This document shows, in pieces, positions 30 through 20,142 of a DNA stretch of 39,522 nucleotides. The DNA is from Bacteroidota bacterium (GTDB taxonomy: Bacteria > Bacteroidota > Bacteroidia > Bacteroidales > UBA5342): NCBI GenBank assembly GCA_003249935.1, contig QKHT01000170.1:1-39522 (forward strand). The letters run 5' to 3'. The position numbers and the translations under genes are program-made. The notes beneath the pieces were generated by a model that had not been told where the DNA came from, ran no database searches, and was given only the letters and a program-made list of their open reading frames with translations. Numbering within the stretch: position 1 is the stretch's first letter; every line of letters begins with the position of its first letter.

Positions 30-710
30 TTAAAGAAGGTTTGAACCATAATAGTTTACCAACACGTTTTTGGCATTACCATAAGATTCAAGCAGTGCGA
101 TTCCGCGCACAACGGCCATGTCGAGTGCACTGGTTCGACCCGAAAAACTATTAATATTTATCAGCAACTGATTGGTTTCGGGCAAAATTTGAGTACGAAT
201 TTCGTCGCTGGTTGGTGTCCCGATTCCGCCTAACGTATCGCGCAAAACGGGCAATCCTTCGATATTAAGTATTCCGCGTCCGATGCCTTCGTAAGGTTCA
301 CCCTGTTTGCCAATACCGTACACAAGTTCGCCATTGATTTTACCCCTATCGAATCCGCCAATAGAAAAGCCGGTTTCGAGCGACAAAAGGTTAATGATAT
401 CCACAAGGGTATTTACATGGTAGAGGCCTTGCCCTTTGAGTAAGCGTCTACAGAGTGCTTCGGCCGATGGACGGTAGCGATTAGGGTCCTTGCCACAAGC
501 CTTATACGCCAAACGGGTTGCCGCAATCGCTTCGCGGCGATTAATTTCAGGAATGGTGTATTTAGCAATAAAGTCGTGGCAAAATGTGTCAATTTCGCAC
601 CAAAGAGCCTCGTTCGATTCACTATTTTCTACCTGACATACCATGGTTGCACACACAAGTTGCGGTTGAACGCCAATAATATCCTCTGCAAAATGAATTT
701 TCGTTACCAT
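30..710 (-). CDS. B3/B4 (PheRS beta editing-type) domain protein
   Basis: This 226-residue protein matches the stand-alone B3/B4 domain family, related to the editing domain of the phenylalanyl-tRNA synthetase beta subunit. Visible marks are the YRPSAEALCRRLL segment, the VDIINLLSLETG helix, the GGFD.GKI loop and the closing GGIGTPTSDE region. In PheRS this fold hydrolyses mischarged Tyr-tRNA. Free-standing members are mostly uncharacterised, so a trans-editing or amino-acid-binding role is inference. I start it at the ATG at 710. The reading frame can be extended only to a TTG at 719, which touches the stop of the preceding gene. It lies 9 bases behind the phosphopantetheinyl transferase gene on the same strand and is probably the last gene of the peptide synthetase operon. 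No partner function is evident from sequence. Confidence 0.8.
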   Translation of the reverse strand: MVTKIHFAEDIIGVQPQLVCATMVCQVENSESNEALWCEIDTFCHDFIAKYTIPEINRREAIAATRLAYKACGKDPNRYRPSAEALCRRLLKGQGLYHVNTLVDIINLLSLETGFSIGGFDRGKINGELVYGIGKQGEPYEGIGRGILNIEGLPVLRDTLGGIGTPTSDEIRTQILPETNQLLININSFSGRTSALDMAVVRGIALLESYGNAKNVLVNYYGSNLL

Positions 711-719
711 GGCTACCAA

Positions 720-1421
720 CTATAATTCGCAACCTGCCGAAATATCGAAAAACTGCAACGATTCTAAAGGCTCGGAAGCCACAACGCTCAGTGCCTCATC
801 GTTTGGCGTAACCACAGTAACGAACTTAAAACCCTGTTCGGTAATCCGGTTATTTTCTGCCCCGATGGTATTTAAATCGTTAAGATTATCGACTAAACCA
901 ATGCCTGTTGCTTTTAATAAGCCCTCCTTTAACGTCCATATTTCGGCAAAATGTTCGGCATGGCGACCATCTTCGCAGTAGCGGTTTTCGACCGGCGAAA
1001 AGGAGTAATCGGCAACAAGCTCAAGATCGGCATCGTATGGAATTTCTTCGAGATCGGTACCCAACTCGCCCTGCCACGAAAAACCAATACAGAACGTATA
1101 ATCGGTATGACTAAGATTGAACCAAAACGGCGTACCGGGAATGTAAGGTTTACCGTTTTCGCTAATGGCAAAAACCACTTCGACTGGTTCGCATTGCAAA
1201 TATTTTGCGGCCAGTAAGCGTAAATATACATGGCTGGCCATCCAGGCACCTCGCAATGCACCATTCATTTTTTTAGCAGCCGTTTGCTCTTTTTTTGTCA
1301 ATATTGTATCCGGAACAACCCCTTTAGGTAGTTTTGCCGAGCCATAAATTACAAAAACAGCACCCGGTTCAACCAAAGATAATACACTAATTTTGTGCCA
1401 GTTAATTTCTTTAAATGCCAT
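720..1421 (-). CDS. 4'-phosphopantetheinyl transferase (Sfp family)
   Basis: The enzyme moves the phosphopantetheine arm from coenzyme A to the serine of carrier domains, turning apo into holo synthetase. The 233-residue length is usual for Sfp-type enzymes. Diagnostic blocks are FNLSHT (101-106), GTDLEE (121-126, with the magnesium-binding Asp123 and Glu125) and WTLKEGLLK (162-170, with Glu166). The start ATG at 1421 lies inside the end of the synthetase gene, whose stop is at 1413-1411, giving an 11-base overlap and probable translational coupling. It would therefore serve the three carrier domains of the neighbouring synthetase. Whether it also modifies the fatty acid carrier protein cannot be judged here. 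Confidence 0.93.
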   Translation of the reverse strand: MAFKEINWHKISVLSLVEPGAVFVIYGSAKLPKGVVPDTILTKKEQTAAKKMNGALRGAWMASHVYLRLLAAKYLQCEPVEVVFAISENGKPYIPGTPFWFNLSHTDYTFCIGFSWQGELGTDLEEIPYDADLELVADYSFSPVENRYCEDGRHAEHFAEIWTLKEGLLKATGIGLVDNLNDLNTIGAENNRITEQGFKFVTVVTPNDEALSVVASEPLESLQFFDISAGCEL

Positions 1422-4400
1422 TATTTGTATTTGATTTTATTGTGATTAAAAACTGAGCCAAATTATCTAATTTTTCAGGAGAAAACAAATCGAGATGCGC
1501 ACCATTCAAATGCAATACTTCAATGGTGCCACTTACAAATTTTTCCCAGCCTAAATATTTACCGCCATACTTCAAATACGAATCAGACGTAACCAGAGAG
1601 ATAGATATTTCCAGTTTGGTCATTCGATACTGCTTAATCATTTGTACCGATCGTTCGTACAAGTTATCGTTAAACGACATGGTTTTTTGTAAATCATCTC
1701 TAATTTCTAATGATGACGGCAGAACCGTGTTGGCTAATTTTCCAAGATTTTTTTTAAGGCTGGCTATTTGAGCCTTTCTTTCGAGGTTTACAAATCGAAT
1801 GAGTTGAAATCGCTTTGTTTTTAATTTGAATGAGAACAAGCTTTGATTGTGAGCCGGTATAAAATAGGCACTGGTATCCAAAATTGAGAGCTTAACGATC
1901 TTGAGCGGTGAATGCGTTAATTGTCGTGCCATTTCGTACACCACAAACCCACCAAAAGAAAAACCAACAAGATGAATTGGCCCCGTTGGAATGATTGTTT
2001 TTATTTGGTTGATGTAATATTCAGCAAGAAGTTCGACTGATTCGGGCACGAGGAGCTCGCCATTTTGCATACAGGCCTGCAAAACATAAACCGTTTGATC
2101 TTCGGGAAAATGCGTCGCCAAATGATGAAACGCCAGTGTTTTTAACCCAAATCCATCAATTACAAACATTGGCACCGATTTAGCATCGCCCTGTTTAATC
2201 GTTACAATTGAATTTCGCGAACTCAAATCACATTCACGATTAATATATTCAGCCAACCGGGCGATATTCGGTTTTGAATAAAACTCGGTTAGGGTAAGCG
2301 AAATACCATAATCGCGTTCTAATGCCGCAATAAACCTAATAATACGTAGCGAGTTAAAACCAACATCAATTAAATGATCATCAAACGAAATAAACGGATT
2401 ACCAGCAATTTCTCTTGCCAATTTAAGCAGATAATCGGCCGACACAAACATTTCTCCATTGACGGGTTCAGCACTTGTGAGGGCTCTGTCCAATATTTCA
2501 CTAAACAAACTGTCATTTGGCGGGGCAAACATGGTGGAGTGCTCGCCCGGTATGGTATGTTGTACAACCCCTTCGGAGGCAAATTTCCCCCAGCCATATC
2601 GCTTTCTATCAGGAATATAAAAGGTTGCCTTGGCCGCTTTGAACAGGTGAAGTTTTACAGGTGCTTTCTTTATTCGATACTGTTTTAATGCGTCGAACAT
2701 TATTAATTTTACCTTTTCGGCCATAAATACCGGTTCATTTCCGGAATCCGTTTTACCCAATTGTGCTGGTTCGGAATTTAGTTTTGCCCCAATATATCGG
2801 ATTATAACCCGAAAATTGTTCCACTTATTTTTAAGAAAATGTCTTTTGCCCGACCAGGGTTCAACCAAAAACAAAAACACAAGGTATACCACCATTGCCA
2901 ACAAATGATACGCTTTGCGACCAATTTTTAATGGTAGTGGCCCCGAATCGCAAGCCATGGTAGCCACCGAATCGATAACGCCTAAAAAGGCTATTTGGTA
3001 ACCTTTTTCGGTAAGGCAGCGTGCCATTTCGTAGGCTATAAACCCACCAATCGAAAATCCAAACAAATGATATGGACCAACAGGTTGTATTTTCTGTATC
3101 TCGGCAATATAATCATGCGCCATTTCTTCGATGGAGGTACTTATGGCCTGTTTGCCATCCAATCCCTTAGCCTGAAGCGCATAAATTGGTCTGTCGGCAT
3201 TAAGATATTTAGACAACGATTGGAATAACAACACATTAAGTCCTGCACCATGAATTAGAAACAACGGCGTTAAACTTCCGACAGAGCGGATAGGCACAAT
3301 AATGTTCCATAATTTATCTATTTTCCGGCTGTCGATTAAAGCAGCAAGCTGTTTTATGGTAGGGTAAGAAATGAGTGAAGCCAATGGCAAATCGATATCC
3401 AGCGACTTTTTAATACCTGCGGCCATTTTTACAGCCTTAAGCGAATGACCGCCAAGTTCGAAGAAATCGTCGCGAATACCAATGTTTTCTATTTGCAAAA
3501 TATCGCACCAAAGCTGATGCAAAACCTGCTCTGTAACGGTCTCCGGTTTTTCCTTCCCCGCATTTTTACTCACAACTGCATCATTTGCCAACAGAGTCAA
3601 AGCTTTTTTATCGACCTTGCCATTTGGGGTAAGTGGTATTTTTTCGGTATGAACCACAATTTCGGGCACCATATAGTCCGGCAAACGCTCTTTGAGTAAA
3701 AGCCGTATACTTTTAGCATTATTCTGCATGCTTTTGCCGGTAAAAAACGCAGCGAGTGCCTTTTCGCCATTCTTTTTTTCAAAGGCTATTACCGCACAAT
3801 TTTCAACACCACTTATGGCCAAAACCGCTGCCTCCACCTCGCCCGGTTCAACCCGAAACCCCCGTATTTTTAATTGAGCATCGGTTCTGCCCAAATAATA
3901 AACCACACCATGCATATCAGATACAACCAAATCGCCTGTTTTATACCATTTTTCGGCTGAACCATTGTTGCCCGATTGGTGGTAAAATACTAAAGATAAC
4001 GGGTCGGGTACATTAACATACCCATTTGAAACACTCACACCTCCAATATGCAATTCGCCGGCCAAACCCGGTGGCAACATTTGCCCCGAAGCATTGCAAA
4101 CTGCTATTTTAAAACCCGGCAAAGGGCGTCCGATAGGCACAGAGAATGAATATGGATTGTTCAGATGTATTTCGTGAGCCAATGCCACTACGGTCGTTTC
4201 GGTTGGACCATAAGTATTGAATAAACGAATATCGGGATGATTACAACGGTTCCACAAAGCCACATCGGCCAACGTAACAGCTTCGCCACCAATAATGATA
4301 ACGCGCAAATCGCAATCGGGAATTTCATCGGCAAACAGCCGTTGCGAAACCACCTCGCGCCAGAATGCGGTTGGCAAATCCCAAACCGTAACGCCATGTT

Positions 4401-7400
4401 GCATGGTATAATCAATCAGTACCTGAACCGAAAGCATATCGTCGGTTCGCGGGTAAAGCGAGGCTCCGGAACAAAAAGCACCAAATATTTCTTCTATTGC
4501 CGCATCGAAACCGAGATTCGAAAACTGCAAAATGCGGTCGAACGAGTTAAAACCATACAATCCAATAGCTCCCGATATAAAATTAGCCAACGCCTGTCGG
4601 CTTATTTTTACGCCCTTGGGTATGCCGGTAGAACCACTTGTATAAATAATATAGGCCAAATCGGCTGCTCGGGGTTCAGCCATTGGCCATACTGTTTCGG
4701 GTTGTGCAGACCATTGTGGTAAAAGAATGGAGACTCCATTGATATTCAAATCTGTATTTGTATCCGAAACGATGACAGTTTCAGAACCCGAATCGTTGAT
4801 TAGAAATAACTGACGGTCGGCGGGTAAACCCGGATCAACCGGCACAAACACCGCACTACAATGTAACACAGCCATTAAGGCCACAAAATATTCGTAAGAA
4901 CGAGGCAGGTTTATGGCTACAACAGATTGGTATGTAACACCTTTGTTCTTCAGTTCCGAGGCAAATGCCATTACATCAGCGCCAAATTGTGCATAGGAGT
5001 ATTCGATGCCATGGTAGTAAACAGCTAACTGCCGGGGGTGCTTCGACACATTGTTGCGAAATAATGTGTAAACATCCTCAGCCGTAGTGGTTATGGCACT
5101 TTGGTTATTTAGTATATCATCGGTTTTTTGCAACAAATGCCGGGACATCAATGGGATCTGCCCCATCGGAATATTCGGCCGCTCAACGCAATGCGCAGTA
5201 AAAGAACTAAACATTTCGCCAATCAAATCGTTACAACCTGAAATCTGTACCGAGTTGTTTACCATTGAAATTTCCAAAGTACCTTGTGGCATTTGAGTGT
5301 TGCGAGAACTGCTTTCATTGATAAAAACAGCCGGAATATTCTGACTTTCCGGCAATAATGCGGTGTATCTCAACCTTAAATCGGCCCGATACAAACCATG
5401 CTTAACCATGTTTTGTCGTTCTGATACAATGCGTTGAAGATTTGTAAGAACCGATTCATTCCGGTCGATGCTTACATTCCAAGGTAACCAGCAAGAAAAA
5501 AATCCGTTCGAAGCAGCCGAAATTTCTGCGCTCTTTTCGGTTACCAAACCAATTGTTGCCCTATGTTGCCTTGATACAATCATCGAAAATAACACAGCCA
5601 TTGCCGGGGCAACCACTTCAAAATTACCTAATCCACAACCAGCAATTTGGCCAGACAAATGATCTAAATGAATGGTCTGTAAGTTGGTAGGGCTATTCCC
5701 CGGAATACCAAAACAAACCGGATTCGGCATAAATGCCACAGATTCGAACCGACGTTTCCAGAATGGTTCATTTTTCGCTTGCTTTGCAAATTCTTTTTCG
5801 GCATACTGTAATTTTTCAGTATCCGGTTCAGCCAAAATCCTCGTACCACTAAACACACTGTTAGCATCAACCAATTGGCCTTTGGTCGAATACAAAGTTT
5901 CGAAAGAGATGCATCCATCGGCAATAGCCACCGAGTAAGCGTTGTTTTCAACAGAAACGAATCCGGGCTTAATATTCGTTTTATACCGAACACTGGCCTT
6001 ACCAACAAAGTAAAGTTGGTTCTGAACCAGGATTACCGGCAACATAAATTCGTTATCGCGGTTTGGACCAAAATCACAAGCATTCAACAACTTACCAACA
6101 GTATCGACAGACATTTGCCACGAAATAAGCCCAAGTATCGAAGGACGTTCGGCCAATCCAAAGTAGGTTCGTTCCGAAAGTTTTTGAGGCGTAGTCATCA
6201 TTTCGTTCTTCTTAAAAGCCAAAATCATGGCATTAAAAGCCGCAATAGCGGCCTCGTAGCAACGGGTATTGAGCGAAAATGCAGTATCGCCGGAATAAAC
6301 CGGTACTTGTTTCGAAACAACAATATCTCCGGCATCTATCTCATTTACAATTACATGCCACGAAATACCATGTTGCATTTCGCCATTAATGAGTGCCCGA
6401 TTCGGGGCAAACATCCCTGCATATTTTGGCAGGGGCGCATCGTGATAATTTACAGCTAAGCGCATAGCCAACGCCGTAAACGCCTGATTCAGAATTAAGC
6501 TATTGTTAATACTAAAAATAAAATCGACAGGTTTAAACACCGATAAATCCTTTACACCAGCGTAAACAGGCACTTTATTTTCGTTTAAAAAATCGACAAA
6601 AGCAATGTCTGTGGTTACTGCCGAATAAAGGACAAACCCGTTTTGCAACAAAATTTGTGCACAATGAATAGCTAAAGTCCCCTCGCCCACAACGATGCAT
6701 GTATGGTTTGAACCCTGTACTTTAAGCGTTTTAGCAATGTTTGCTATTTCGGGCTGAACCATAGCATGCGGTTCAGCCACCATAACAGAAGCGATGGTAC
6801 TGATTGATTCGGATAATTTTTCGACAAAAAATTCGTCGAAAAGCATGGTATCATATTCGAGAAAACAGTGATACGCACCGCCAACCCGCTCCACATTCAG
6901 CATCATATCCATTTTACAGGTATCGTTACCAATTTCGCGTTGGGTAAGGGTAAATCCCGGAAAAACTTCGCCGTTATGTGGCCAGTTCTGCATTACGAAT
7001 ATCGCCTGAAAAATGGGATAAACGCCCGGTTCGAACCGGTAATCGAGTTGCTTGACCAATTCGCCAAATGGCAGATTTGCGTGCGAAAATGCGCCGATTG
7101 ATGCTTCATTACATCGTTGCAACATGTCGGCAAAAGTATCATCCTCGCTCCATGACATATTGATACTTACCATATTGGTATAATAGCCTATCAGATCGGT
7201 AACCATCGGGTTTTTTCTATTGGCAAAAGGCGTTCCCACAACCACATGGTTTTGGTTTGCTGCCATACCAAGAGCCAACTGATAGGCACACATCATAAAC
7301 ACAAAGGGTGTTGTGTTAAAAGCAGTGGATACCAAATCAATTTCATTTGAGCATTGTTCCGGTATCGACCACCAGAGTCTTCGACCATATTTTCCGGCTT

Positions 7401-9906
7401 CATACGGCTGAGCATCGGGTTTGCGTGGCAATAGCAACCGGTTGGGTATTTTATTCAATGCCAATTTCCAATAATCCAATTCACCGGCATACAATCCTTT
7501 TACCAACTCACTTTGTAATTGTAGTGCATAATCGCCATGACGAAATCTCTGTGGTTCAGAACCAATACCCACATAATTATTGCGCCAACGCGACATAAAC
7601 AATTGAAGCGACCAACCATCGAAAACAATATGATGAACGGACATTAACAACCGATATTCAGATGCATTCCACTTAATTAACCTGATTGAGAATAGCGGCG
7701 GATGGTTAAAATCGAAAAGAATATGACCGTTTTCGAATATTACCTGAGCATAGTGAGCCTCCTTTTCCGAATCATTAATTTGCGAAAAATCAGACTCCGA
7801 TATATGAAAGCTAATTTCCTGAAGAATTTCCTGTACCGGCCCATCGTTTGTTACTGGCAACGCACTACGCAACATCTCTTCGTTTTGTATTGTTACGCGT
7901 AATGCCTCCAAAAGCCGGGTTTTATCGACTTTACCCTTTGCAATAAATTCAATATGTATATTATGCGTTAATCCGCTACTGTCGAGGCTATTCATAACCC
8001 ACATTTCGTTCTGAACCGGTGTTAGCGGATAAATGGTACGCAGAAGATTAGGTTCATATGAATGGTAGACTTCCGGTTCAAAATTCGCTTTTAACAAATT
8101 GGTAATATGCGTTGCCATAACCGGCAATGTGGTTTGCCCGTAAAACAGTTGAAGTGGCAATTCGACACCAAACTGCTTTATCACTTCGGTAATTACCTGA
8201 ATAGCTTTGAGCGAATGGCCGCCCGACTGAAAAAATGTGGCATCTGTTGCAACAGATTCTTTGCCAAGAATTTTGCACCAGATTTTTAATAATGCCTCTT
8301 CAGTTTCGTTTTGGGGAACAAACGGTTCGAAATAATCTGTGGTGCACAATTCGCATACAGGTTTTAATGCCCTTTTATCTATTTTACCATTGGGTGTTAG
8401 CGGAAAATTTCGGCATATAACCAATTCACCAGGAATCATAAACTGTGGCAAAAAAGCAGATAATGAAGCGATTACAGCCTCTTTTAGCGACTCATTAGCC
8501 ATGAAATAGTTGCTGTCGGGTTCAGGCAATAAATCCACAGGCTTCAAATAAGCCACAATGGCATCGTCGCCATTGCGGTCTTTTGCAAATACAACCGCAC
8601 TTTCGCTCACAAAGGAAATTTGTTGTACTGCATTTTCTATTTCGCCAAGTTCTATTCGGAGTCCCCGTAGTTTAACCTGAAAATCGCGACGACCAATAAA
8701 ATCGTACATCCCCGATGGCAGGCGTTTGCCAATATCGCCCGTACGATACATTTTCTTGCCCGGAACAAATGGGTCATTTACAAAACGTTCGGCCGTAAGT
8801 TCGGGCCTGTTGAGGTATCCGTTAGCCACGCCGGCTCCTCCAATACAAATTTCACCTTCTTCGCCTTCAGCAACAGCATTCAACGTTTCATCCAGGATGT
8901 ATATATTGTCGTTGGTAACATTTTCGCCTATCGGAATTTTAGTGTATTTTTCGGTTGGATTGCAAAGATAGGTTGTGGCATAAACCGTGGTTTCGGTTGG
9001 GCCATAAACATTGATAAGTTTCACCCGTTCTCCATCCACCAATTCGTAAAACCTATTGACCAAAGAAACCGGCAACACTTCGCCACCTACCGAAACCCAT
9101 TTTAATGAAGCCAGTTGCGTTTGTTTTTTAGCTGTAATGGCATAATCGACAAACGCATTTAACATCGAAGGCACAAAAAAGAGAAAATTTACCCCAAACC
9201 GATTAATGAGTTTCACCAACTGCACCGGATCTTTTTCGGCACCCACCGGGGCAATCAACAGCATAGCCCCCATAGCCATCCAACCGAAAAGCTCCCAGAT
9301 TGAACCATCGAAAGTATATGGCGATTTTAACATCACCACATCGCCTTTAGTTATAGGATATCGGTTCTGAACATCATTCAACAGATTTACAACTGCCGAG
9401 TGTGGCACCATAACGCCTTTTGGTATTCCGGTTGAACCGCTCGTAAAAAGTACGTACGCATTATCCGAAGGCTGGTAATCAACCGAAAATAATCCTGTTT
9501 CGATCTCATCATTCAAAACAGGAACAAGAGCACAAAAACCTTGATGATTGAAACGTGCGACCAATGGCGCATGAGTAATCACAACTTTTACACCAGCATC
9601 TTCAAATACCGACTTAACACGCTCCCCGGGATAATTGGTATCCATTGGCACATAAGCAGCACCGGTAGCTAAAACAGCAAAAATGGCCACAACCATCTCG
9701 GCCGAACGATCGAGGCAAATGCCAACCATATCCCCCCGATTTACGCCATTCTTGTTCAGTTCATTTGCTACAGAAATAATGCAGTGGTTAAATTCGGAAT
9801 AAGTGAAATGATACCCTTCTCCAATAATGGCCGTTTCGTTTGGAAAACGAGCTACGGCATACTTTAAAACATCAATCAGATGTTTTACATTTTCATTTTG
9901 TGGCAT
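1411..9906 (-). CDS. Non-ribosomal peptide synthetase, A-T-C-F-(half C)-A-T-TE-T-TE
   Basis: A 2831-residue assembly line in one unbroken frame. Domains by residue: adenylation A1 about 1-530 (LFTSGSTGIPKG, YGPTETT, TPNGKIDK); carrier T1 around Ser564 (GGHSLKA); condensation about 625-1045 with an intact HHIVFDG near 757; formyltransferase-like domain about 1075-1250 with N-x-H in NYHDAPLPKYAG near 1152 and the DAGDIV loop, plus its C-terminal subdomain to about 1360; a region about 1395-1610 resembling only the C-terminal half of a condensation domain; A2 about 1635-2120; T2 near 2154 (ELGGHSLKA); thioesterase TE1 with GFSIGG near 2284 and GEH near 2455; T3 near 2518 (FNSLRI); TE2 with GFSFGG near 2649 and GAH near 2802. 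With no upstream C domain, A1 is a loading module, so the simplest product is a dipeptide, possibly formylated, or an oligomer of it. The substrates and product are unknown. Confidence 0.95.
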   Translation of the reverse strand: MPQNENVKHLIDVLKYAVARFPNETAIIGEGYHFTYSEFNHCIISVANELNKNGVNRGDMVGICLDRSAEMVVAIFAVLATGAAYVPMDTNYPGERVKSVFEDAGVKVVITHAPLVARFNHQGFCALVPVLNDEIETGLFSVDYQPSDNAYVLFTSGSTGIPKGVMVPHSAVVNLLNDVQNRYPITKGDVVMLKSPYTFDGSIWELFGWMAMGAMLLIAPVGAEKDPVQLVKLINRFGVNFLFFVPSMLNAFVDYAITAKKQTQLASLKWVSVGGEVLPVSLVNRFYELVDGERVKLINVYGPTETTVYATTYLCNPTEKYTKIPIGENVTNDNIYILDETLNAVAEGEEGEICIGGAGVANGYLNRPELTAERFVNDPFVPGKKMYRTGDIGKRLPSGMYDFIGRRDFQVKLRGLRIELGEIENAVQQISFVSESAVVFAKDRNGDDAIVAYLKPVDLLPEPDSNYFMANESLKEAVIASLSAFLPQFMIPGELVICRNFPLTPNGKIDKRALKPVCELCTTDYFEPFVPQNETEEALLKIWCKILGKESVATDATFFQSGGHSLKAIQVITEVIKQFGVELPLQLFYGQTTLPVMATHITNLLKANFEPEVYHSYEPNLLRTIYPLTPVQNEMWVMNSLDSSGLTHNIHIEFIAKGKVDKTRLLEALRVTIQNEEMLRSALPVTNDGPVQEILQEISFHISESDFSQINDSEKEAHYAQVIFENGHILFDFNHPPLFSIRLIKWNASEYRLLMSVHHIVFDGWSLQLFMSRWRNNYVGIGSEPQRFRHGDYALQLQSELVKGLYAGELDYWKLALNKIPNRLLLPRKPDAQPYEAGKYGRRLWWSIPEQCSNEIDLVSTAFNTTPFVFMMCAYQLALGMAANQNHVVVGTPFANRKNPMVTDLIGYYTNMVSINMSWSEDDTFADMLQRCNEASIGAFSHANLPFGELVKQLDYRFEPGVYPIFQAIFVMQNWPHNGEVFPGFTLTQREIGNDTCKMDMMLNVERVGGAYHCFLEYDTMLFDEFFVEKLSESISTIASVMVAEPHAMVQPEIANIAKTLKVQGSNHTCIVVGEGTLAIHCAQILLQNGFVLYSAVTTDIAFVDFLNENKVPVYAGVKDLSVFKPVDFIFSINNSLILNQAFTALAMRLAVNYHDAPLPKYAGMFAPNRALINGEMQHGISWHVIVNEIDAGDIVVSKQVPVYSGDTAFSLNTRCYEAAIAAFNAMILAFKKNEMMTTPQKLSERTYFGLAERPSILGLISWQMSVDTVGKLLNACDFGPNRDNEFMLPVILVQNQLYFVGKASVRYKTNIKPGFVSVENNAYSVAIADGCISFETLYSTKGQLVDANSVFSGTRILAEPDTEKLQYAEKEFAKQAKNEPFWKRRFESVAFMPNPVCFGIPGNSPTNLQTIHLDHLSGQIAGCGLGNFEVVAPAMAVLFSMIVSRQHRATIGLVTEKSAEISAASNGFFSCWLPWNVSIDRNESVLTNLQRIVSERQNMVKHGLYRADLRLRYTALLPESQNIPAVFINESSSRNTQMPQGTLEISMVNNSVQISGCNDLIGEMFSSFTAHCVERPNIPMGQIPLMSRHLLQKTDDILNNQSAITTTAEDVYTLFRNNVSKHPRQLAVYYHGIEYSYAQFGADVMAFASELKNKGVTYQSVVAINLPRSYEYFVALMAVLHCSAVFVPVDPGLPADRQLFLINDSGSETVIVSDTNTDLNINGVSILLPQWSAQPETVWPMAEPRAADLAYIIYTSGSTGIPKGVKISRQALANFISGAIGLYGFNSFDRILQFSNLGFDAAIEEIFGAFCSGASLYPRTDDMLSVQVLIDYTMQHGVTVWDLPTAFWREVVSQRLFADEIPDCDLRVIIIGGEAVTLADVALWNRCNHPDIRLFNTYGPTETTVVALAHEIHLNNPYSFSVPIGRPLPGFKIAVCNASGQMLPPGLAGELHIGGVSVSNGYVNVPDPLSLVFYHQSGNNGSAEKWYKTGDLVVSDMHGVVYYLGRTDAQLKIRGFRVEPGEVEAAVLAISGVENCAVIAFEKKNGEKALAAFFTGKSMQNNAKSIRLLLKERLPDYMVPEIVVHTEKIPLTPNGKVDKKALTLLANDAVVSKNAGKEKPETVTEQVLHQLWCDILQIENIGIRDDFFELGGHSLKAVKMAAGIKKSLDIDLPLASLISYPTIKQLAALIDSRKIDKLWNIIVPIRSVGSLTPLFLIHGAGLNVLLFQSLSKYLNADRPIYALQAKGLDGKQAISTSIEEMAHDYIAEIQKIQPVGPYHLFGFSIGGFIAYEMARCLTEKGYQIAFLGVIDSVATMACDSGPLPLKIGRKAYHLLAMVVYLVFLFLVEPWSGKRHFLKNKWNNFRVIIRYIGAKLNSEPAQLGKTDSGNEPVFMAEKVKLIMFDALKQYRIKKAPVKLHLFKAAKATFYIPDRKRYGWGKFASEGVVQHTIPGEHSTMFAPPNDSLFSEILDRALTSAEPVNGEMFVSADYLLKLAREIAGNPFISFDDHLIDVGFNSLRIIRFIAALERDYGISLTLTEFYSKPNIARLAEYINRECDLSSRNSIVTIKQGDAKSVPMFVIDGFGLKTLAFHHLATHFPEDQTVYVLQACMQNGELLVPESVELLAEYYINQIKTIIPTGPIHLVGFSFGGFVVYEMARQLTHSPLKIVKLSILDTSAYFIPAHNQSLFSFKLKTKRFQLIRFVNLERKAQIASLKKNLGKLANTVLPSSLEIRDDLQKTMSFNDNLYERSVQMIKQYRMTKLEISISLVTSDSYLKYGGKYLGWEKFVSGTIEVLHLNGAHLDLFSPEKLDNLAQFLITIKSNTNNGI

Positions 9907-9931
9907 TAATTTGTGTATTTACCTTATAGTG

Positions 9932-9939
9932 CAAAAGTA
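9932..9939 (-). promoter_or_regulatory. Candidate -7 box for the synthetase operon
   Basis: On the minus strand this reads TACTTTTG, a full match to the Bacteroidota -7 consensus TAnnTTTG, 25 bases upstream of the synthetase ATG. I see no convincing -33 TTG at the usual distance, so the call rests on the -7 box alone. Confidence 0.4.
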
Positions 9940-10277
9940 ACCTTATATTATACATTATTACATTTTTTATTAATTAATTACATTATATAATATTAAATGA
10001 CACTTCATCTTTGGATACAAATCAATCTATAAGCCAATTTCAAACAAACATATCACCCGGCTAAACTCTAAAGGAGTGTATACATAAACAGACCCTATGT
10101 GCAAACAATTTGCGATTTATGCTATATACTCATTTTATCACTTTTTTAAACATATAATAAAACAGGCTCAAACGTTACAATATTACTCAGATTAAAATTC
10201 GGGCAATACACTCAAAACTCAAACTGAAACAATTAAAACTTTCTTGTATAATAAGCCCGACCCAAAACAAATCGGAT
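9940..10277. other. AT-rich divergent spacer
   Basis: This stretch separates the minus-strand synthetase operon from the plus-strand ketopantoate reductase gene. It is very AT-rich with runs of TTAATTAATTA. I see no open reading frame of substance, no RNA gene and no clear operator palindrome. Confidence 0.6.
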
Positions 10278-10285
10278 TAACTTTG
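10278..10285 (+). promoter_or_regulatory. Candidate -7 box for the ketopantoate reductase gene
   Basis: TAACTTTG matches the Bacteroidota -7 consensus TAnnTTTG and lies 20 bases before the ATG at 10306, implying a short leader. The nearest upstream TTG (10244-10246) is too far away to be a standard -33 box. Confidence 0.45.
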
Positions 10286-10305
10286 CAGAGAAAAAAAACA
10301 GACAG

Positions 10306-11232
10306 ATGACAATATTAATAATAGGCACGGGAGGTGTCGGCGGATTTTTTGGTGCCAAGTTGGCTGCAGCCGGGTTCGATGTAACCTTTATGGCTCGGGG
10401 GGCGCATTTCGATGCCATTAAAACAAATGGATTAAGGGTAAAAAGCATAGATGGCGACATGCATATTTTTCCCGCAAAAGTGGTTCAACAACCCGAAAAA
10501 ACATACGATTTGGTAGTTGTAGCCACAAAGGTCTATCACATCACCGATTCGGCCGAAGCCATCCGGCAGGCAACAGGTCCCGACACAACGGTACTTCCAC
10601 TTTGTAACGGCATAGAAGCCAACATATTGCTCGAAAATATTATTGACAAAAAGCATATTTTAGGTGGCTTATGCCGTATTTTTAGCAGTATTGCTGAACC
10701 GGGCGTTATTCAACATACCGGGTTTCCCGGTCCAACCATCACTTTTGGCGAAATGGATAATTCGCTCTCCGAGCGAGTGATTGCAATAGAAACTCTACTT
10801 ACCAAATCAGGCATTAAACATGTGCTTTCCAATGAAATACAAGTAGAAATATGGCGTAAATTCATATTTATTGCTTCAACCAGTCTGGTGGGTGCCGCCA
10901 CACGGGTTCCTTTTGGCGAATTTATCGGCTGTGAGGCAAGTTTTAACCTCCTAAAAAACATCATTCGCGAAATGATTTCGGTTGCGCGGGCTCTGCATAT
11001 CGCCCTGCCCGACAACGAATTCGAACGACAATTGGAATTTACCATTAAACAACCTCCAAAGGCGACCACATCGATGCAGCGCGACATCCTCGAAGGCAAA
11101 GTTTCGGAACTCGAACACCAGGGCGGGGCTCTGGTTCGAACCGCCGGAGCAGCCGGAATTGATGTGCCATATACAACAGCTATTTACGCAGCACTCTTAC
11201 CGCAAGAGTTGCGAACCCGCAAAAATTATTGA
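10306..11232 (+). CDS. panE: 2-dehydropantoate 2-reductase (ApbA/PanE family)
   Basis: Predicted to reduce ketopantoate to pantoate with NADPH in the pathway to vitamin B5 and coenzyme A. The 308-residue length fits the family. The N-terminal Rossmann fold opens with the dinucleotide motif GTGGVGG (7-13). The middle has LPLCNGIEA, the counterpart of the family's QNG region, and the C-terminal helical domain has EIWRKF with the likely catalytic lysine near 184. Pantothenate feeds the phosphopantetheine arm used by the divergent synthetase, but such proximity can be chance. Several relatives in Bacteroidota are annotated only at family level, so another 2-oxoacid substrate is possible. It ends at a strong hairpin shared with the convergent yaaA gene. 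Confidence 0.85.
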   Translation: MTILIIGTGGVGGFFGAKLAAAGFDVTFMARGAHFDAIKTNGLRVKSIDGDMHIFPAKVVQQPEKTYDLVVVATKVYHITDSAEAIRQATGPDTTVLPLCNGIEANILLENIIDKKHILGGLCRIFSSIAEPGVIQHTGFPGPTITFGEMDNSLSERVIAIETLLTKSGIKHVLSNEIQVEIWRKFIFIASTSLVGAATRVPFGEFIGCEASFNLLKNIIREMISVARALHIALPDNEFERQLEFTIKQPPKATTSMQRDILEGKVSELEHQGGALVRTAGAAGIDVPYTTAIYAALLPQELRTRKNY

Positions 11233-11236
11233 ATAA

Positions 11237-11269
11237 AAAAAGGGAAAGCCATAGCGACTTTCCCTTTTT
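11237..11269. terminator. Bidirectional terminator between panE and yaaA
   Basis: A perfect 12-base-pair stem (AAAAAGGGAAAG / CTTTCCCTTTTT) encloses a 9-base loop. It has A-tracts on one side and T-tracts on the other, so it can end both convergent transcripts. The yaaA stop codon begins right beside it. Confidence 0.9.
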
Positions 11270-12037
11270 CTATCTGATATAAATCCATTTATCGGGCAGC
11301 GAATGGGCCGCGCTAAAGGTATACCCTTCGTAATCAAACGCCTGCAAATCGGTGGATTTCGTAATTTTTTGTTCTGTTATGAACCGCGCCATAAGGCCTC
11401 GGGCTTTTTTGGTGTAAACTGTAATGTTTTTAAGTTTTCCGTTTTCTTCCTGTCGAAAATCGACCGTTAGAACCGGAAACTTTAGCTTTTTCTTATCGAT
11501 AACCTTAAAATATTCGGCCGAAGCAGCATTAATCAGTATTTTATCACCCTGCGAATCAGCAATATCCCGGTTCAACTGCTCAGTAACCATTTTATGCCAG
11601 AAGGAATACAACGAAGTGTGTTCGCCGGGGCCCCATTTTGTACCCATTTCGAGCCGGTAGGGTTGTATTAAATCGAGCGGATTTAAAAGCCCGTATAATC
11701 CTGACAGAATCCGAATGTAATCCTGTGACGAAGCAATGGTTTCAACAGACCAGTTTTCTACATTTATACCACGATACACTTCGCCGTTAAATGCTAAAAT
11801 AGACTGTAAAGCATTTTCATTTTCCACCGTTTTATGCCACAGACGATAGCGTTCAAAATTCAGCTCAGCTAATGCACGGCTCACTCCAAACAACGCCATT
11901 AAATCGTCGACGCTTTTCATCCGCAATTCTTTTGCAATCGCATTGGCTTTTTTAGCAAAATTCGGTACTGTCGAAGGTAAATTTTCCCGAACTATCGTAG
12001 AATTAATACTTTTAGCAGGAGAAACTACAACTATCAT
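11270..12037 (-). CDS. yaaA: Peroxide stress protein YaaA (UPF0246)
   Basis: YaaA lowers free intracellular iron and protects DNA and proteins during hydrogen peroxide stress in E. coli; the fold is a DNA-binding-like cavity protein. The 255 residues carry the family's recognisable blocks: SPAKSI at the N terminus, AFNGEVYRGI, the LSGLYGLLNPLDLIQPYRLE stretch, and the INAASAEYFKVID segment. It follows the FGE-like lipoprotein gene with a 16-base gap on the same strand, so the two may be cotranscribed. No functional link between them is known. Confidence 0.93.
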   Translation of the reverse strand: MIVVVSPAKSINSTIVRENLPSTVPNFAKKANAIAKELRMKSVDDLMALFGVSRALAELNFERYRLWHKTVENENALQSILAFNGEVYRGINVENWSVETIASSQDYIRILSGLYGLLNPLDLIQPYRLEMGTKWGPGEHTSLYSFWHKMVTEQLNRDIADSQGDKILINAASAEYFKVIDKKKLKFPVLTVDFRQEENGKLKNITVYTKKARGLMARFITEQKITKSTDLQAFDYEGYTFSAAHSLPDKWIYIR

Positions 12038-12053
12038 AACATGCTATAAATAA

Positions 12054-12950
12054 CTACTTTGCACAACGAAAACCGGTATTAAACAATGATGTTTCGTACG
12101 AATTTTGCGATCGAAAATACACAGTGGCACTTTGATCGCCGGCCTGGTCGTACATAAACGACCCTCCACGAAGCACTTTAATCGTTTCGTCGCCAGAACC
12201 ATCAGCCACGCTTGAGTAAGGCGCATAGCTGTCTGCTGTCCATTGCCATACGTTGCCACACATATCGCACAGCCCCGATGGTGTTTCTCCGAATGCCCCC
12301 ACAGGATTTGTAGTCAGATAACCATCGTCTGTTTTAATATCCTGCATGGTGCCCTGAAAAATATTCAGCATCCATTTACCATCAACCTTTACCTCATTTC
12401 CCCAAGGAAACTGCGTATCAGTTTTGCCACCATTTCGTGCGGCAAATTCCCATTCAGCTTCTGTGGGCAAGCGTTTTTGTGCCCAAGCGGCATATGCAAC
12501 AGCATCGTTCCAGCTCACATGGGTTACAGGATGATTGTCTTCGGCCTTCGCACTCTGTGGCCCCAAAGGCATCTCCCAATAAGCACCCGGCAATAACGAC
12601 CAGGCCGCTGTTTTAAAATCGAAAACTCCCGAATCTTTAAACTTTTCGGCCTCGGTTAAATAACCCGTAGCCCGTGTAAATTCACGAAACTGCGCCACGG
12701 TAACCAAATATTTATCCATAGAAAATGGTGCTACGGTAACCTTATGTGCTGGCGACTCATTGGGCAATCCGTTGTTCCGGCCCATCATAAAATCACCCCC
12801 TTCGAAATTTATCATTGCTGAATTGGTTGTGGGTTGAACCGCTTTTTGATTGACAGAAGCACTGTTCGCACTATTGTGGTCGCCACCATTTTTAGACCCA
12901 CAGGATACCATACACAGGGATAAACCCAGTGCAATAGAAATGTTTTTCAT
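12054..12950 (-). CDS. FGE-sulfatase (SUMF1-like) domain lipoprotein without catalytic cysteines
   Basis: A 298-residue secreted protein. The first 17 residues form a lipoprotein signal ending in MVSC, so it should be anchored in an envelope membrane through Cys17. From about residue 47 it follows the formylglycine-generating-enzyme fold: GGDFMMG, HVSWNDAVAYAAWA, RLPTEAEWEFAAR, CDMCGNVWQWT and the final SQNSYETSLFNTGFRC. In true formylglycine-generating enzymes two cysteines sit in the GGSYMCHRSYC region. Here the matching stretch is GGSFMYDQAGDQS, with no cysteine. It is therefore probably a structural or ligand-binding member of the family and not a sulfatase activator. No sulfatase needing formylglycine lies beside it. 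It is probably cotranscribed with yaaA. Confidence 0.85.
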   Translation of the reverse strand: MKNISIALGLSLCMVSCGSKNGGDHNSANSASVNQKAVQPTTNSAMINFEGGDFMMGRNNGLPNESPAHKVTVAPFSMDKYLVTVAQFREFTRATGYLTEAEKFKDSGVFDFKTAAWSLLPGAYWEMPLGPQSAKAEDNHPVTHVSWNDAVAYAAWAQKRLPTEAEWEFAARNGGKTDTQFPWGNEVKVDGKWMLNIFQGTMQDIKTDDGYLTTNPVGAFGETPSGLCDMCGNVWQWTADSYAPYSSVADGSGDETIKVLRGGSFMYDQAGDQSATVYFRSQNSYETSLFNTGFRCAK

Positions 12951-13027
12951 GTGATATATTGATTTTTAATGCATTAAATAAAAATAAAAACGAAGATATT
13001 GCTTCTTTCCCAAAATCACAAAACAAC

Positions 13028-13060
13028 AAATGGGCTATTCGTAAAACGAACAGCCCATTT
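13028..13060 (-). terminator. Hairpin downstream of the ferredoxin gene
   Basis: Arms AAATGGGCT and AGCCCATTT are extended inward by TTCGT / ACGAA, giving a long interrupted stem. On the minus strand it follows the ferredoxin stop by about 24 bases and is followed by a T-rich stretch, so it likely ends that transcript. It also lies upstream of the FGE-like gene. Confidence 0.75.
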
Positions 13061-13083
13061 ATAATGTTTTTTTTAACTGCAAA

Positions 13084-13251
13084 TTACTCAGGATGAATTG
13101 CTTCGGTTGGGCAAACATCGGCGCAAGAGCCACAATCGGTACATGCATCTGCATCGATTTTAAAGATATCGCCTTCACTAATTGCTTCAACAGGACATTC
13201 ATCGATACAAGTTCCGCAAGCTATGCAGTCGTCAGAAATTACGTAAGCCAT
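13084..13251 (-). CDS. 2[4Fe-4S] bacterial-type ferredoxin
   Basis: A 55-residue electron carrier starting MAYVISDDCIACGTC. Two clusters are formed by classic motifs: CIACGTCIDECP at residues 9-20 and CTDCGSCADVCP at 37-48. The two halves are clearly repeats of each other, each ending in a PVEAI or PTEAI turn. This is the short clostridial-type ferredoxin that passes low-potential electrons between oxidoreductases such as pyruvate:ferredoxin oxidoreductase in the cytoplasm. It stands alone between a terminator and its own promoter, with no redox enzyme adjacent, so the partner is unknown. Its presence suggests fermentative or facultative anaerobic metabolism. Confidence 0.95.
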   Translation of the reverse strand: MAYVISDDCIACGTCIDECPVEAISEGDIFKIDADACTDCGSCADVCPTEAIHPE

Positions 13252-13279
13252 AATATTTGTTTTTAAAAAATTACAAGGG

Positions 13280-13287
13280 CAAATTTA
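13280..13287 (-). promoter_or_regulatory. Candidate -7 box for the ferredoxin gene
   Basis: On the minus strand this reads TAAATTTG, an exact TAnnTTTG match, 28 bases before the ferredoxin start. A TTG lies 24 bases further upstream, slightly wider than the usual Bacteroidota spacing. Confidence 0.45.
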
Positions 13288-13472
13288 GAGCATTTTTTTT
13301 AATACCCTTACCAATTCCGAAAAAAGTAGAAAAAATAATCGCTTTTTTTCCCGATTTTTCATTCGAACAATGGGTTATACCATAGACACATGCAATAATT
13401 TATTGTGGTTCTACATAAACGGGAACCATGATTACAAAATCGAATCTGAAGTAAACCGGTTCAGCCAAAAGA

Positions 13473-14732
13473 TTAATTTTTAAGTGTAAACATAAACCTT
13501 GCGCCATGGCCTGGTTCCGATTCGGCCCATATTGACCCGCCATGCCGTTCCACAATACGCTTAACGGTGCTCAAACCAACACCGGTACCATTAAACTCTT
13601 CGTTGGAGTGTAGCCTGATAAATGGACTAAATAGTTTTGAAGCCTTTTCCATATCAAATCCGGCACCGTTATCTTCAACAAAATATACGGTTTGACCATT
13701 GGCATCGTAACTACCAAATTTAATCACCGCCTGCGGATTCTTCTGGCTGTATTTCCAGGCATTGCCCAAAAGATTATTTAGCACAACGCGCATCAGACCA
13801 TTATCTGCATGTATATTTATATCAGGTTCAATTATTACCTGCACCTTGCGGTCCGGTTCCCGCATTTTTATTTCGGCCAAAACTTTCTCGGCCAAAAGCG
13901 ATATATTAAACAAATCGGGATTAATTTCGGTACGCCCCGATCGCGAAAATTGAAGCAAATCTTCGATAAGTTGCGCCATATTACTTACCGATTGCATCAT
14001 AAATTTCAAACATTCCTTGCCATAATCGTCCAAAAACTCATCATAATCGTCGAGCAATATATTGGCAAAACCCATTACACCATTAAGTGGCGAACGCAAG
14101 TCGTGCGAAACCGTATGCGCAAATGCATCGAGTTCCTGGTTAGCGGTCTGCAAACTTTCGTTAAGCACCTGCAACTGCCGTTGGGCCATTATTAGTTGCT
14201 CGTTGCGGTGTATCGCCGCTTCGTATACAGACAATAACAGATCGAGTATTTGCTTTTTATCTGAGTTGATTAGAAATTTTTCGTTCTGAAATACAACCTC
14301 CATCGACATATCGCCCATGCCAGCCCGGCGAATATCGCGGTTAGCCAACAAATATTTTATGCGCGACAGCAAATACTGGTCTTCGTAAGGTTTGGTGATA
14401 AAATTATCGGCCCCGGCCTGCAACCCTTTAATAATATCCATGGGGTCGCTCAATGAGGTGAGTAATATTACAGGTACATCCTTTAATTCGGGGTTGGTTT
14501 TTACCCTTGAACACAAGGTGTAACCGTCCATTTTAGGCATAATAATATCACTGATGATAAGCACCGGCTTCTTCATTATGGCTGCATTCAGGGCATCTTC
14601 GCCATTATCGAAGATAACATTATTAATATTATTGCCATCGAGCAAAAATTTCAGCTTTTTTGCCTGAACTTTTGAGTCTTCGGCGGCCAGAATATAACCC
14701 TCGTTTAAACTGATACTATATGATGTAGACAT
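13473..14732 (-). CDS. Response regulator-histidine kinase (REC-HisKA-HATPase)
   Basis: A 419-residue soluble signalling protein. The N-terminal receiver has the phospho-acceptor Asp62 (LIISDIIMPKMDG), the acidic AED near 17-19, LLTS and the conserved KPY. A coiled-coil linker leads to the HisKA box SHDLRSPLNG, with the phospho-histidine near 210. The ATPase domain follows with NNLLGNAWKYS (N box), DNGAGF (G1) and GTGVGLSTVK (G2). It is the last gene of the chemosensory cluster, 3 bases behind cheB. That is the position held by the diguanylate cyclase WspR in Wsp systems. CheA-type phosphorylation of its receiver, controlling its own kinase activity, is inference. The next phospho-acceptor is not encoded nearby. 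Confidence 0.9.
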   Translation of the reverse strand: MSTSYSISLNEGYILAAEDSKVQAKKLKFLLDGNNINNVIFDNGEDALNAAIMKKPVLIISDIIMPKMDGYTLCSRVKTNPELKDVPVILLTSLSDPMDIIKGLQAGADNFITKPYEDQYLLSRIKYLLANRDIRRAGMGDMSMEVVFQNEKFLINSDKKQILDLLLSVYEAAIHRNEQLIMAQRQLQVLNESLQTANQELDAFAHTVSHDLRSPLNGVMGFANILLDDYDEFLDDYGKECLKFMMQSVSNMAQLIEDLLQFSRSGRTEINPDLFNISLLAEKVLAEIKMREPDRKVQVIIEPDINIHADNGLMRVVLNNLLGNAWKYSQKNPQAVIKFGSYDANGQTVYFVEDNGAGFDMEKASKLFSPFIRLHSNEEFNGTGVGLSTVKRIVERHGGSIWAESEPGHGARFMFTLKN

Positions 14733-14735
14733 TTT

Positions 14736-15800
14736 CTATAGAATTGTTTTATCTGCTATTTCAATCAATTGATTAACAATCTCATCGGGAGACATTATAC
14801 TTATGGCCCCACCCAATTTTACTGCTTCGCCCGGCATACCCCAAACAAGCGATGTTTCGGCACTCTGAACAATGGTATGTGCGCCGGCATTCCGTAATAA
14901 TCTAAGCTCTTCGGCTCCATCGCGCCCCATTCCTGATAACAAAATGGCAACGGTATTTGCGCCATACACAGTTGCTGCGGTACGAAACAATACCGATACG
15001 GCAGGTCGCAAATTTGCTTCCGGTATACCAGCTTCAGAAGAAACCAATCCGCCATTTTTTAGTACCAAATGACAATCACCTTTTGGCAAATATACAACAC
15101 CACGCTCTATTTTTTCGATTTCACCGGCAATTTTTACAGGCAATGCCGAAAAACCGGACAACCATTGACAGTATCCCTCTGCAAAATGGGTATCGATATG
15201 TTGAACAATAAATACCGGAAGAGAAAAACTAACCGGCAATTGGCTCAATATTGCTTTTACAGCCTGCGGTCCACCGGCCGATGCCCCAATAACAACCACT
15301 TCATAACGCGCCCTTTCTGTACTAAATCCACCCTCATTTTTTGGGGTTGAACCGATTATTTTTGGATTAATTTCAACTTTTTTGCGTCGCACCACTTTTA
15401 CCTCGGCCATAGATTTTAGCATACCGACGTACTTTTTGGCCGTTTGTGCATATTTTTCGTGAGCCGGACCATAGGGCTTTGGCATAATATTTACGGCACC
15501 AGCTTCCAGCACCTTCATCGCCATTTCTATTTCCGAAGGTCTGTAAAAGCTACTTACAATAACAATTGGGGTCGGATTTTCGCACATAATTTTTTGTGTG
15601 GCCACGATGCCGTCCATCAGGGGCATATTCAAATCCATACTTATCACATCCGGCTTCAAACTTTTTACCATATCAATAGCCAACTGACCATTTTCGGCCT
15701 CTCCAACAATTTCAATCCCACTGTCGTCCTGCAAAATATGCCTAAGGAGTTTGAGCGAGACGAAACTGTCTTCTACAATTAAAACCCGTGTTTTTTTCAT
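14736..15800 (-). CDS. cheB: Chemotaxis response regulator / methylesterase CheB
   Basis: CheB removes methyl groups from receptor glutamates, resetting receptor sensitivity when CheA phosphorylates it. The receiver domain has acidic Glu10-Asp11, phospho-acceptor Asp56 (ISMDLNMP) and Lys108. After a linker of about 50 residues, the methylesterase domain shows the Ser-His-Asp triad in GASAGGP (Ser near 173), VQHID and LLSGMGRDGAE. All three residues are present, so it should be active. It lies 16 bases downstream of cheA and 3 bases upstream of the REC-kinase gene. In Wsp-type systems the equivalent is WspF. Confidence 0.95.
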   Translation of the reverse strand: MKKTRVLIVEDSFVSLKLLRHILQDDSGIEIVGEAENGQLAIDMVKSLKPDVISMDLNMPLMDGIVATQKIMCENPTPIVIVSSFYRPSEIEMAMKVLEAGAVNIMPKPYGPAHEKYAQTAKKYVGMLKSMAEVKVVRRKKVEINPKIIGSTPKNEGGFSTERARYEVVVIGASAGGPQAVKAILSQLPVSFSLPVFIVQHIDTHFAEGYCQWLSGFSALPVKIAGEIEKIERGVVYLPKGDCHLVLKNGGLVSSEAGIPEANLRPAVSVLFRTAATVYGANTVAILLSGMGRDGAEELRLLRNAGAHTIVQSAETSLVWGMPGEAVKLGGAISIMSPDEIVNQLIEIADKTIL

Positions 15801-15816
15801 TTTAGCCGTTGTGCTG

Positions 15817-18075: not shown

Positions 18076-18088
18076 GTTTTTCCTTTAT

Positions 18089-19564
18089 CTATAAATTAAA
18101 CCGATCCACCAACTCTTTTAGCTTCTGACCGAGATTTTTCATATCGTTTACCGCTTCACGCGTTTGCTTCATGCCTACAACATTTTGCTCACTGGCCTGC
18201 CGGATGTTTTCCATCGCCGGCACAATCTGGTCCATACCGGCTATTTGTTGCTGGCTCGATGAGTTAATTTGTATCGACGAATTAAATGTTTCATCCACAT
18301 TTTGCGCCAAAAGTTCAATTGCTTCGCCACTCTGCTCGCTCAGTTTTCGCCCGGTTGCTACCGTTTCGCCACCTTGCTTGGTTACCAAAACAGTTTGATT
18401 AATCAGCTTTTGTATTTCGCTCAAAATTTCTTTAACCTGAATGGTAGCTTTTTTAGACTGTTCAGATAATCGCCTGATTTCCTGAGCTACCACTGCAAAT
18501 CCACGACCATGTTCGCCGGCCTTTGCTGCTTCTATTGCAGCATTTACTGCCAACAAATTCGACTGATCGGCAATATCGGCAACCGTGGCAGTGATGTCAC
18601 TAACCGATTGGTTTTGCTCCGAAAGTTTAACAACAGTTTCGGCAATAACCTTCATTTGTTCATCAATTTTTTGTATCGCCTCAATGACATTGGCCACCGA
18701 TTCTTTGCCGGCCTCAACCGAATCCGATGCACGTTGAGAACTTAACATTAGTGTTTGCGCCTTTTGTCCGGCAACCAACGATGTTTGCCTTACCTCCTCG
18801 AGCGTGGTGGTGGTTTCGTTAATGGAGGTAGAGGTTTCGGTAGCACCGGTAGCGATTTCGGTTACAGTACTCAAAATTTCGGCTACGGAACTTCCCAAAA
18901 CATTTATGCCTTCGCGAACTTCATGCGTGGCATTTTTTATGAGTTTTATGATATCGCGAATGAGGAAAAATGCAATAATTACAATCAATACACCCAAAAC
19001 AGATAGTACCGACAGGGATACAGTGGTTGTTTTTGTTGCCTGTTGCCGTATTTCGCCGGCTTTTGCAGCCAGTGCTTGTTGCAACACCAACACAACTGAT
19101 ACACTATTATCGTAAATCTGATTCCACTTTTCGAGTGAAATATTCTCTTTTGGATTTCGATTTCGCAGCAACTGTGTCACCAGCTCCGTTTCAGAATCGA
19201 GACCGGCATACAAGCTATTCAATCTGTCCACTTCAGTCTTAAACCCTTCTACAATATCCACCTTTTCACAAAACAATTTGTAGCTTGCTTCCAATGCGGC
19301 CTTTTTATCGTTTAATGTATTGGGCTGAACCAATTGGGGCTGAATAGCCGAATGATTAATAGCCGCTGACAATCCAAGGTGAGCGTTATTGTAGTCATTA
19401 AGGCTAATTAATGCACCGGTTGCCTCGGCATACCGCTGTTGCGCCTTCGAAATGCTCGACACACTAATCCAAAGCACAATCAAACAAACAATTACACCAA
19501 ATATGATGAACGAAAATCCAAAGAAAATCTTTGTTCGGGGCGAAAACTTAAACTTTGATTCCAT
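18089..19564 (-). CDS. Methyl-accepting chemotaxis protein
   Basis: A 491-residue membrane receptor. A transmembrane helix lies at about 12-35 and a second at about 180-202, enclosing a mostly helical periplasmic sensor of about 145 residues that could be a four-helix bundle. The cytoplasmic part begins with a short, poorly conserved HAMP-like stretch, then helices rich in Thr/Ser/Glu that resemble methylation sites ([18 protein letters not shown]). The signalling tip is highly conserved ([32 protein letters not shown]). No CheR-tethering pentapeptide is at the C terminus. It is the only receptor in the cluster and would be the dedicated input of this pathway. The ligand is unknown. Confidence 0.94.
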
Positions 19565-19567
19565 ATA

Positions 19568-20089
19568 TTACAATTTTGTTTTTTTTTGATTTACAATTAC
19601 AGCGGTACTATTTAACAATTTCTCTACATCGAGCAATATCATACCATGGTCGGTTACCCCTTTTGCATAAGCATTCGATACAGTGGGCGGTAAAGGCTTA
19701 AAAGTTTCATTCGACACGGTATAACTACCCAAAATGCCATTTGTTAAAATCCCAAACTCCATTGCCGGGGTGCATAAAACAATCACCTTATCAGCCTCTT
19801 TCAACCCCTTTTGTTTTAAATTTAAAAACAACCGGATATTAATGACCGAAATTACTCTTCCTCCAAAATTTATTACGCCCATCACAAAATCGGGCGTACC
19901 GGGGATGAGGGTAATTTCTTTAAGTGTAATTACCTGGCAAACAAACCGATTATCAATCAAATACTTATCCGGAAAAATGGCAAATTCAATAACATCAGTT
20001 GATCCTGCATCATCGAGCAGTGGTACAATACGCGGCCTTGCCAGTGCGATTGCCCGTTCGTCCAGAATTTCTCTTTCCGATTTAATCAT
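19568..20089 (-). CDS. cheW: CheW-like coupling protein (first copy)
   Basis: A 173-residue scaffold protein linking receptor and CheA. The CheW beta-barrel pattern is clear: FPDKYLIDNRFVCQVITLKE, then PDFVMGVINFGGRVISVINIRLFL, which is the family's strongest block, followed by FGILTNGILGSYTVSNE. An N-terminal extension of about 35 residues (DERAIALARPR) is typical of some Bacteroidota CheW proteins. It lies directly upstream of the receptor gene (3-base gap), so it is transcribed just before its main partner. One of two CheW proteins in the cluster, corresponding to the WspB/WspD pair. Confidence 0.92.
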   Translation of the reverse strand: MIKSEREILDERAIALARPRIVPLLDDAGSTDVIEFAIFPDKYLIDNRFVCQVITLKEITLIPGTPDFVMGVINFGGRVISVINIRLFLNLKQKGLKEADKVIVLCTPAMEFGILTNGILGSYTVSNETFKPLPPTVSNAYAKGVTDHGMILLDVEKLLNSTAVIVNQKKTKL

Positions 20090-20142
20090 GCTTCCGACAT
20101 TTTTTTTAAAATTACAACTTTAATCATATAATCTACTGTTTT

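Follow-up and report, generated by a model that had tools for sequence, protein, structure and literature searches.

An internal formyltransferase domain joined to adenylation through half a condensation domain in a Bacteroidota nonribosomal peptide synthetase

The present study reveals an apparently intact formyltransferase domain (F) at a non-starter position of a nonribosomal peptide synthetase (NRPS), followed there by the C-terminal half of a condensation domain and then by an adenylation domain. The gene lies at 1411-9906, minus strand, of the window, that is, the whole stretch of Bacteroidota DNA analysed here (39,522 nucleotides), and encodes 2831 amino acids with no stop and no frame break. 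Its domain order is A-T-C-F-hC-A-T-TE-T-TE (A, adenylation; T, carrier; C, condensation; hC, half condensation domain; TE, thioesterase). The internal F-hC-A unit is conserved in independent genomes and extends the known formylation modules of NRPSs. Our main reading, to which we give a probability of roughly 0.4, is that of a dimodular NRPS in which F formylates the lysine-like residue bound to the second carrier domain (T2), most likely on its side chain, C joins the alpha amine, and the peptide is released. There is direct support for the identity of each domain, for the retained catalytic residues, for hC as a condensation-domain lobe, for the basic code carried by the second adenylation domain (A2), and for the association of an internal F with that code.

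By Pfam, Formyl_trans_N and Condensation each match the protein once, AMP-binding and Thioesterase twice, and PP-binding three times; our own HMMs, whose residue numbers start from a frame 4 amino acids longer, give the same domain order. The order A-T-C-F-A-T-TE-T-TE, which an earlier note had read from the DNA, is thus matched by both methods with one amendment: F does precede A2, but the two do not adjoin, since hC (residues 1361-1605) separates them. Upstream of F, on the minus strand like every part of the gene, are A1 (residues 16-515; 8362-9861; code DGWFSGVVY, from Pfam and code alignment), T1 (residues 535-603; 8098-8304; GGHS), and C (residues 624-1055; 6742-8037), which Pfam and motif show to be near full length (Pfam Condensation 3-441 of 456), with HHIVFDG kept at 758. 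After A2 come T2 (residues 2125-2194; 3325-3534; GGHS), TE1 (residues 2205-2470; 2497-3294), T3 (residues 2490-2556; 2239-2439; VGFNS), and TE2 (residues 2570-2822; 1441-2199). The carrier domains were placed by Pfam, motif, and our own HMMs, and the thioesterases by Pfam and motif; both of the latter carry the type I TE nucleophile motif GxSxG (GFSIG at 2283 and GFSFG at 2648). T2-TE1 shares 51% identity with the T-TE of one relative (L025), and T3-TE2 shares 32% with that of another (L021). We infer that in its double T-TE the window may have kept the fuller form, of which parts were lost in others.

Directly downstream of the NRPS, and overlapping its stop, lies a 4'-phosphopantetheinyl transferase (PPTase) gene (720-1421, minus strand; ACPS domain, E = 9.8e-11), so the cluster does have an activating transferase of its own, as had been proposed. 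A PPTase also adjoins the NRPS in L021 and L025. The accompanying proposal that the cluster is self-contained is left unproven, because the window is one whole contig and the operon reaches to fewer than 30 bases from its end; more cluster genes may lie beyond. The PPTase gene is followed, at the end of the contig, by a gene for a B3/4-domain protein (30-719, minus strand). On the other side, a ketopantoate reductase (PanE/ApbA) gene (10306-11232, plus strand) is divergent from the NRPS; that a pantothenate gene adjoins a phosphopantetheine-dependent enzyme may be chance. At 13473-22094 (minus strand), a run of ORFs reads, from translations alone, as a putative chemosensory-type system with kinase/response regulator, CheB-, CheA-, receptor-, CheW-, and CheR-like members. 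Among the genes seen next to the NRPS, none is for an amine monooxygenase. A promoter scan returned fewer sites than in shuffles, and a terminator scan about as many sites as in shuffles.

F occupies residues 1064-1360 (5827-6717, minus strand), after A-T-C and before A2, and its non-starter position therefore stands as first described. It comprises an N-terminal catalytic and a C-terminal subdomain. Profile searches confirm a formyltransferase in the region first delimited as residues 1075-1360: Pfam Formyl_trans_N matches residues 1127-1223 (E = 1.7e-14), and a model of the family from which the window was left out gives the window 405 bits (E = 4.6e-123), with 0 of 200 shuffles scoring. The nearest solved structures by sequence are ArnA (1.3e-19) and GAR transformylase. 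The F domain of LgrA is weakly similar in sequence (phmmer E of about 0.1), which would fit a recruitment separate from that of the window's F. In a predicted structure of residues 1060-1611 (pLDDT 90.9, pTM 0.88), the match of the F part to ArnA has a Z of 27.3 (283 residues), and that to methionyl-tRNA formyltransferases a Z of about 25. The catalytic N-x-H and D residues, already seen to be retained, are N1153-Y-H1155 (6442-6450) and D1191 (6334-6336), both on the minus strand; N1153, H1155, and D1191 are invariant across 39 aligned relatives. Both the sequence and the model thus point to a complete domain of the ArnA/Fmt type.

The stretch between F and A2, overlooked in the earlier note, is the C-terminal half of a condensation domain (residues 1361-1605; 5092-5826, minus strand). 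It is missing the N-lobe with HHxxxDG, and F occupies the place of that catalytic lobe. Because Pfam gives no match on the window's own hC, we base the assignment on its relatives and on structure. Pfam Condensation matches the hC of two relatives, at 189-455 in L047 and at 190-344 in L029, and hhalign aligns hC with condensation domain positions 188-430 at 81% probability. A separate model of hC (pLDDT 90.4) matches EntF 174-438 with a Z of 17.7 over 220 residues; among the matches listed, the structures similar to hC are condensation-type domains. An apparent C-A linker of the usual kind, with the consensus ERxxxLxxWNxT, closes the unit in many relatives. Tentatively, we regard the whole as an NRPS elongation module in which F replaces the N-lobe of a C domain, the C-lobe serves as a mount on A, and an internal diamino acid is formylated in cis.

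We scanned genome contigs and obtained 80 loci; of the loci long enough to judge, nearly all have F, then about 220-290 amino acids, then A. Under the grouping made here, F-hC-A consists of an Fmt-type F, the C-lobe of a C domain, and A, as found in the window. The unit is spread over Rhodobacteraceae, rhizobia, cyanobacteria, Streptomyces, Bacteroidota, Photorhabdus, Mycetohabitans, and Legionella, with copies carried on plasmids in rhizobia, Mycetohabitans, and Legionella. Further copies are rare: matches occur in 5 of 295 genomes of the order, 1 of 3 of the family, and 1 of 395 sampled from the class, and the phylum sample added a single further full-length match; the count for the order makes the distribution a patchy one. 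F is almost always N-terminal among the relatives and is internal in five proteins: that of the window, L021/L030, L029, L022, and the cyanobacterial L047. The same order recurs in other genomes, where the earlier note had advised looking for it: L021/L030 reads A-T-C-F-hC-A-T-TE (41% identity over 2510 amino acids), and L029 reads A-T-C-F-hC-A (42% over 2050 amino acids) and ends at the contig end. L047 has C-F-hC-A-T. At L022 (3631-17424), a 4598-residue synthetase keeps between C and A2 a degenerate F with the N-x-H replaced, apparently a natural, inactive version to judge from its residues.

Three relatives, L025-L027, have F-hC-A(DAEDIGTVV)-T-TE without A-T-C, and their three genomes contain zero Condensation matches; all are MAGs, so the absence of a C domain may mean incomplete assembly. 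In the tree, L025-L028, which are without A-T-C, stand beside L029 within the Bacteroidota clade (98/92). This placement suggests that L025-L028 lost A-T-C, in a tree where some support values are low and the L022 branch is very long. In L025-L028 (about 3000-14950), apparent glycosyltransferase/polysaccharide genes are closely followed by F-hC-A-T-TE and a PPTase-like ORF, and L025 also has a gene for a beta-helix secreted protein upstream. Most relatives are from Rhodobacteraceae, and their A domain contains an inserted luciferase-like monooxygenase (TIGR04020); this abundant form, with a Gly code, is that of L031 and most other Rhodobacteraceae loci in L031-L104. L116 and L117 (Bacteroidota) have a stand-alone F relative close to a luciferase-like monooxygenase gene, confirmed by Pfam in L116, and it is the same pair of activities that is fused in Rhodobacteraceae. 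The cyanobacterial L070 and L094 have very long ORFs that show, close to their beginning, F-hC-methyltransferase-A with a Gly code. At L023 (10962-13400, minus strand), an F relative directly follows an adenylation ORF of another frame and may be a gene of its own or reflect a frameshift.

The adenylation codes were read by alignment to a PheA segment; as a control, the known code of PheA was recovered from this segment, and codes recognisable as those for Gly and Thr were obtained elsewhere. A2 (residues 1612-2104; 3595-5073, minus strand) was placed by Pfam and reads DAEDIGTVV. According to work on PosA (PMC10522769), the first and third code residues, Asp and Glu, bind the two amines of diamino acids, and enzymes that activate Lys have Ala as the second. 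A2 has all three residues, and a survey lists Lys and Arg codes near its own (PMC12283262). On this evidence, the substrate of A2 is most likely basic, with Lys preferred and Arg or Orn possible. The A domain after F reads DAEDIG(T/S)V in all five internal-F proteins and in L025-L028. Among the majority with an N-terminal F, the next A mostly reads DILQ-G-IW, a Gly code, and the Streptomyces L042 combines F-hC-A with the Gly code DILQLGLIW. The only F residues found to track the Lys-like code differ along the lines of the Bacteroidota clade, and L047 lacks most of these differences; in the comparison across relatives, no F residue could be linked to side-chain use.

We infer the formyl donor, site, timing, and product of F along the following lines. 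A1 would load the first amino acid onto T1, and A2 a basic diamino acid, most likely lysine, onto T2. F, tied to A2 through the C-lobe of the former condensation domain, would take formyl from 10-formyl-tetrahydrofolate and formylate, in cis, an amine of the T2-bound residue, most likely that of the side chain. C, with its intact HHxxxDG, would link residue 1 to the alpha amine left free, and the TEs would release what is probably a small peptide with an N-formylated lysine-like residue. LgrA, as cited in PMC4504003, likewise formylates the residue on its own carrier in cis. Since L025-L027 keep F-hC-A(Lys-like)-T-TE without a Condensation match, F needs no first module and most likely acts on the amino acid of its own module. 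The basic code of A2 implies a side-chain amine, so formylation of the second residue, one of two targets named in the earlier note, is plausible. Furthermore, a residue with two amines leaves one free for the upstream C, whichever F takes. Condensation domains normally use the alpha amine, and the side chain is therefore favoured as the site of F.

The foremost rival, rather unlikely in its own right, is that F and C use the two amines of the Lys-like residue on T2 the other way round, F formylating the alpha amine and C using that of the side chain, to give an isopeptide-linked dipeptide. It comes nearly as likely as side-chain formylation because the Gly-coded F-hC-A relatives, which offer an alpha amine only, must formylate that amine. 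The catalytic residues of F are conserved family-wide, and the logic would be shared with LgrA and CongA. Against it, the C domain of the window looks canonical (HHIVFDG) and would be expected to use the alpha amine as such domains do. Side-chain formylation of the residue on T2 thus remains our preferred reading.

The second target named earlier, the amine of residue 1 at the free N-terminus of the T2-bound dipeptide, is improbable. T2 does bear the dipeptide after condensation, and F is part of that module; however, L025-L027 keep F and the same A2 code with neither a first module nor a detected C, which disfavours this target. Slightly less probable still is a catalytically dead F whose role is structural, that of spacing C from A2. 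An F domain can persist without activity, because L022 keeps the fold with the catalytic residues lost, its F region being retained despite the replaced N-x-H, but the window's F keeps every catalytic residue and its predicted fold is complete. An assembly chimera joining two NRPS genes, conceivable in a draft of 326 contigs, is rejected as next to impossible, since the independent genomes of L021 (2510 amino acids, 41% identity) and L029 (2050 amino acids, 42%) show the same order, the NRPS is the sole Condensation locus in the host genome, and the reading frame is unbroken.

If active, F-hC-A in the window would provide an in-cis formylation module for internal residues, and the exchange of an N-lobe for F a concrete example of how tailoring domains possibly enter NRPSs. 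A review describes F domains as very scarce and confined to initiation modules (PMC8949500). The window's F, at residues 1064-1360, falls outside that description, and F-hC-A is present in nearly all 80 loci, with a subset internal and bearing the Lys-like code. F-containing loading modules have been published for conglobatin, phthoxazolin, and discodermin. In searches of the open-access literature, we found no internal F and no F fused to a half C domain.

Among known systems, LgrA of linear gramicidin (F-A-T) resembles the window in having a formyltransferase-fold domain N-terminal to A-T within an NRPS. However, the F of LgrA is N-terminal, whereas that of the window is internal and closer to ArnA/Fmt; moreover, the window's F is joined to A through hC, and F-A of the LgrA type has no C-like lobe. 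The oxazolomycin, conglobatin (CongA), and phthoxazolin (PtxE) systems, compared by published description, have F-A(Gly)-T modules, and they differ in their starter position and Gly substrate from the window, whose F follows A-T-C and precedes a Lys-like code. The Rhodobacteraceae proteins of the form F-hC-A-(TIGR04020)-T share the F-hC-A unit, but there F is N-terminal, the code is that of Gly, and a monooxygenase lies inside A. Finally, the stand-alone ornithine formyltransferases of the PvdF/rhodochelin type also formylate a side-chain amine in nonribosomal peptide pathways; in contrast to the domain described here, they are separate enzymes whose substrate is hydroxyornithine.
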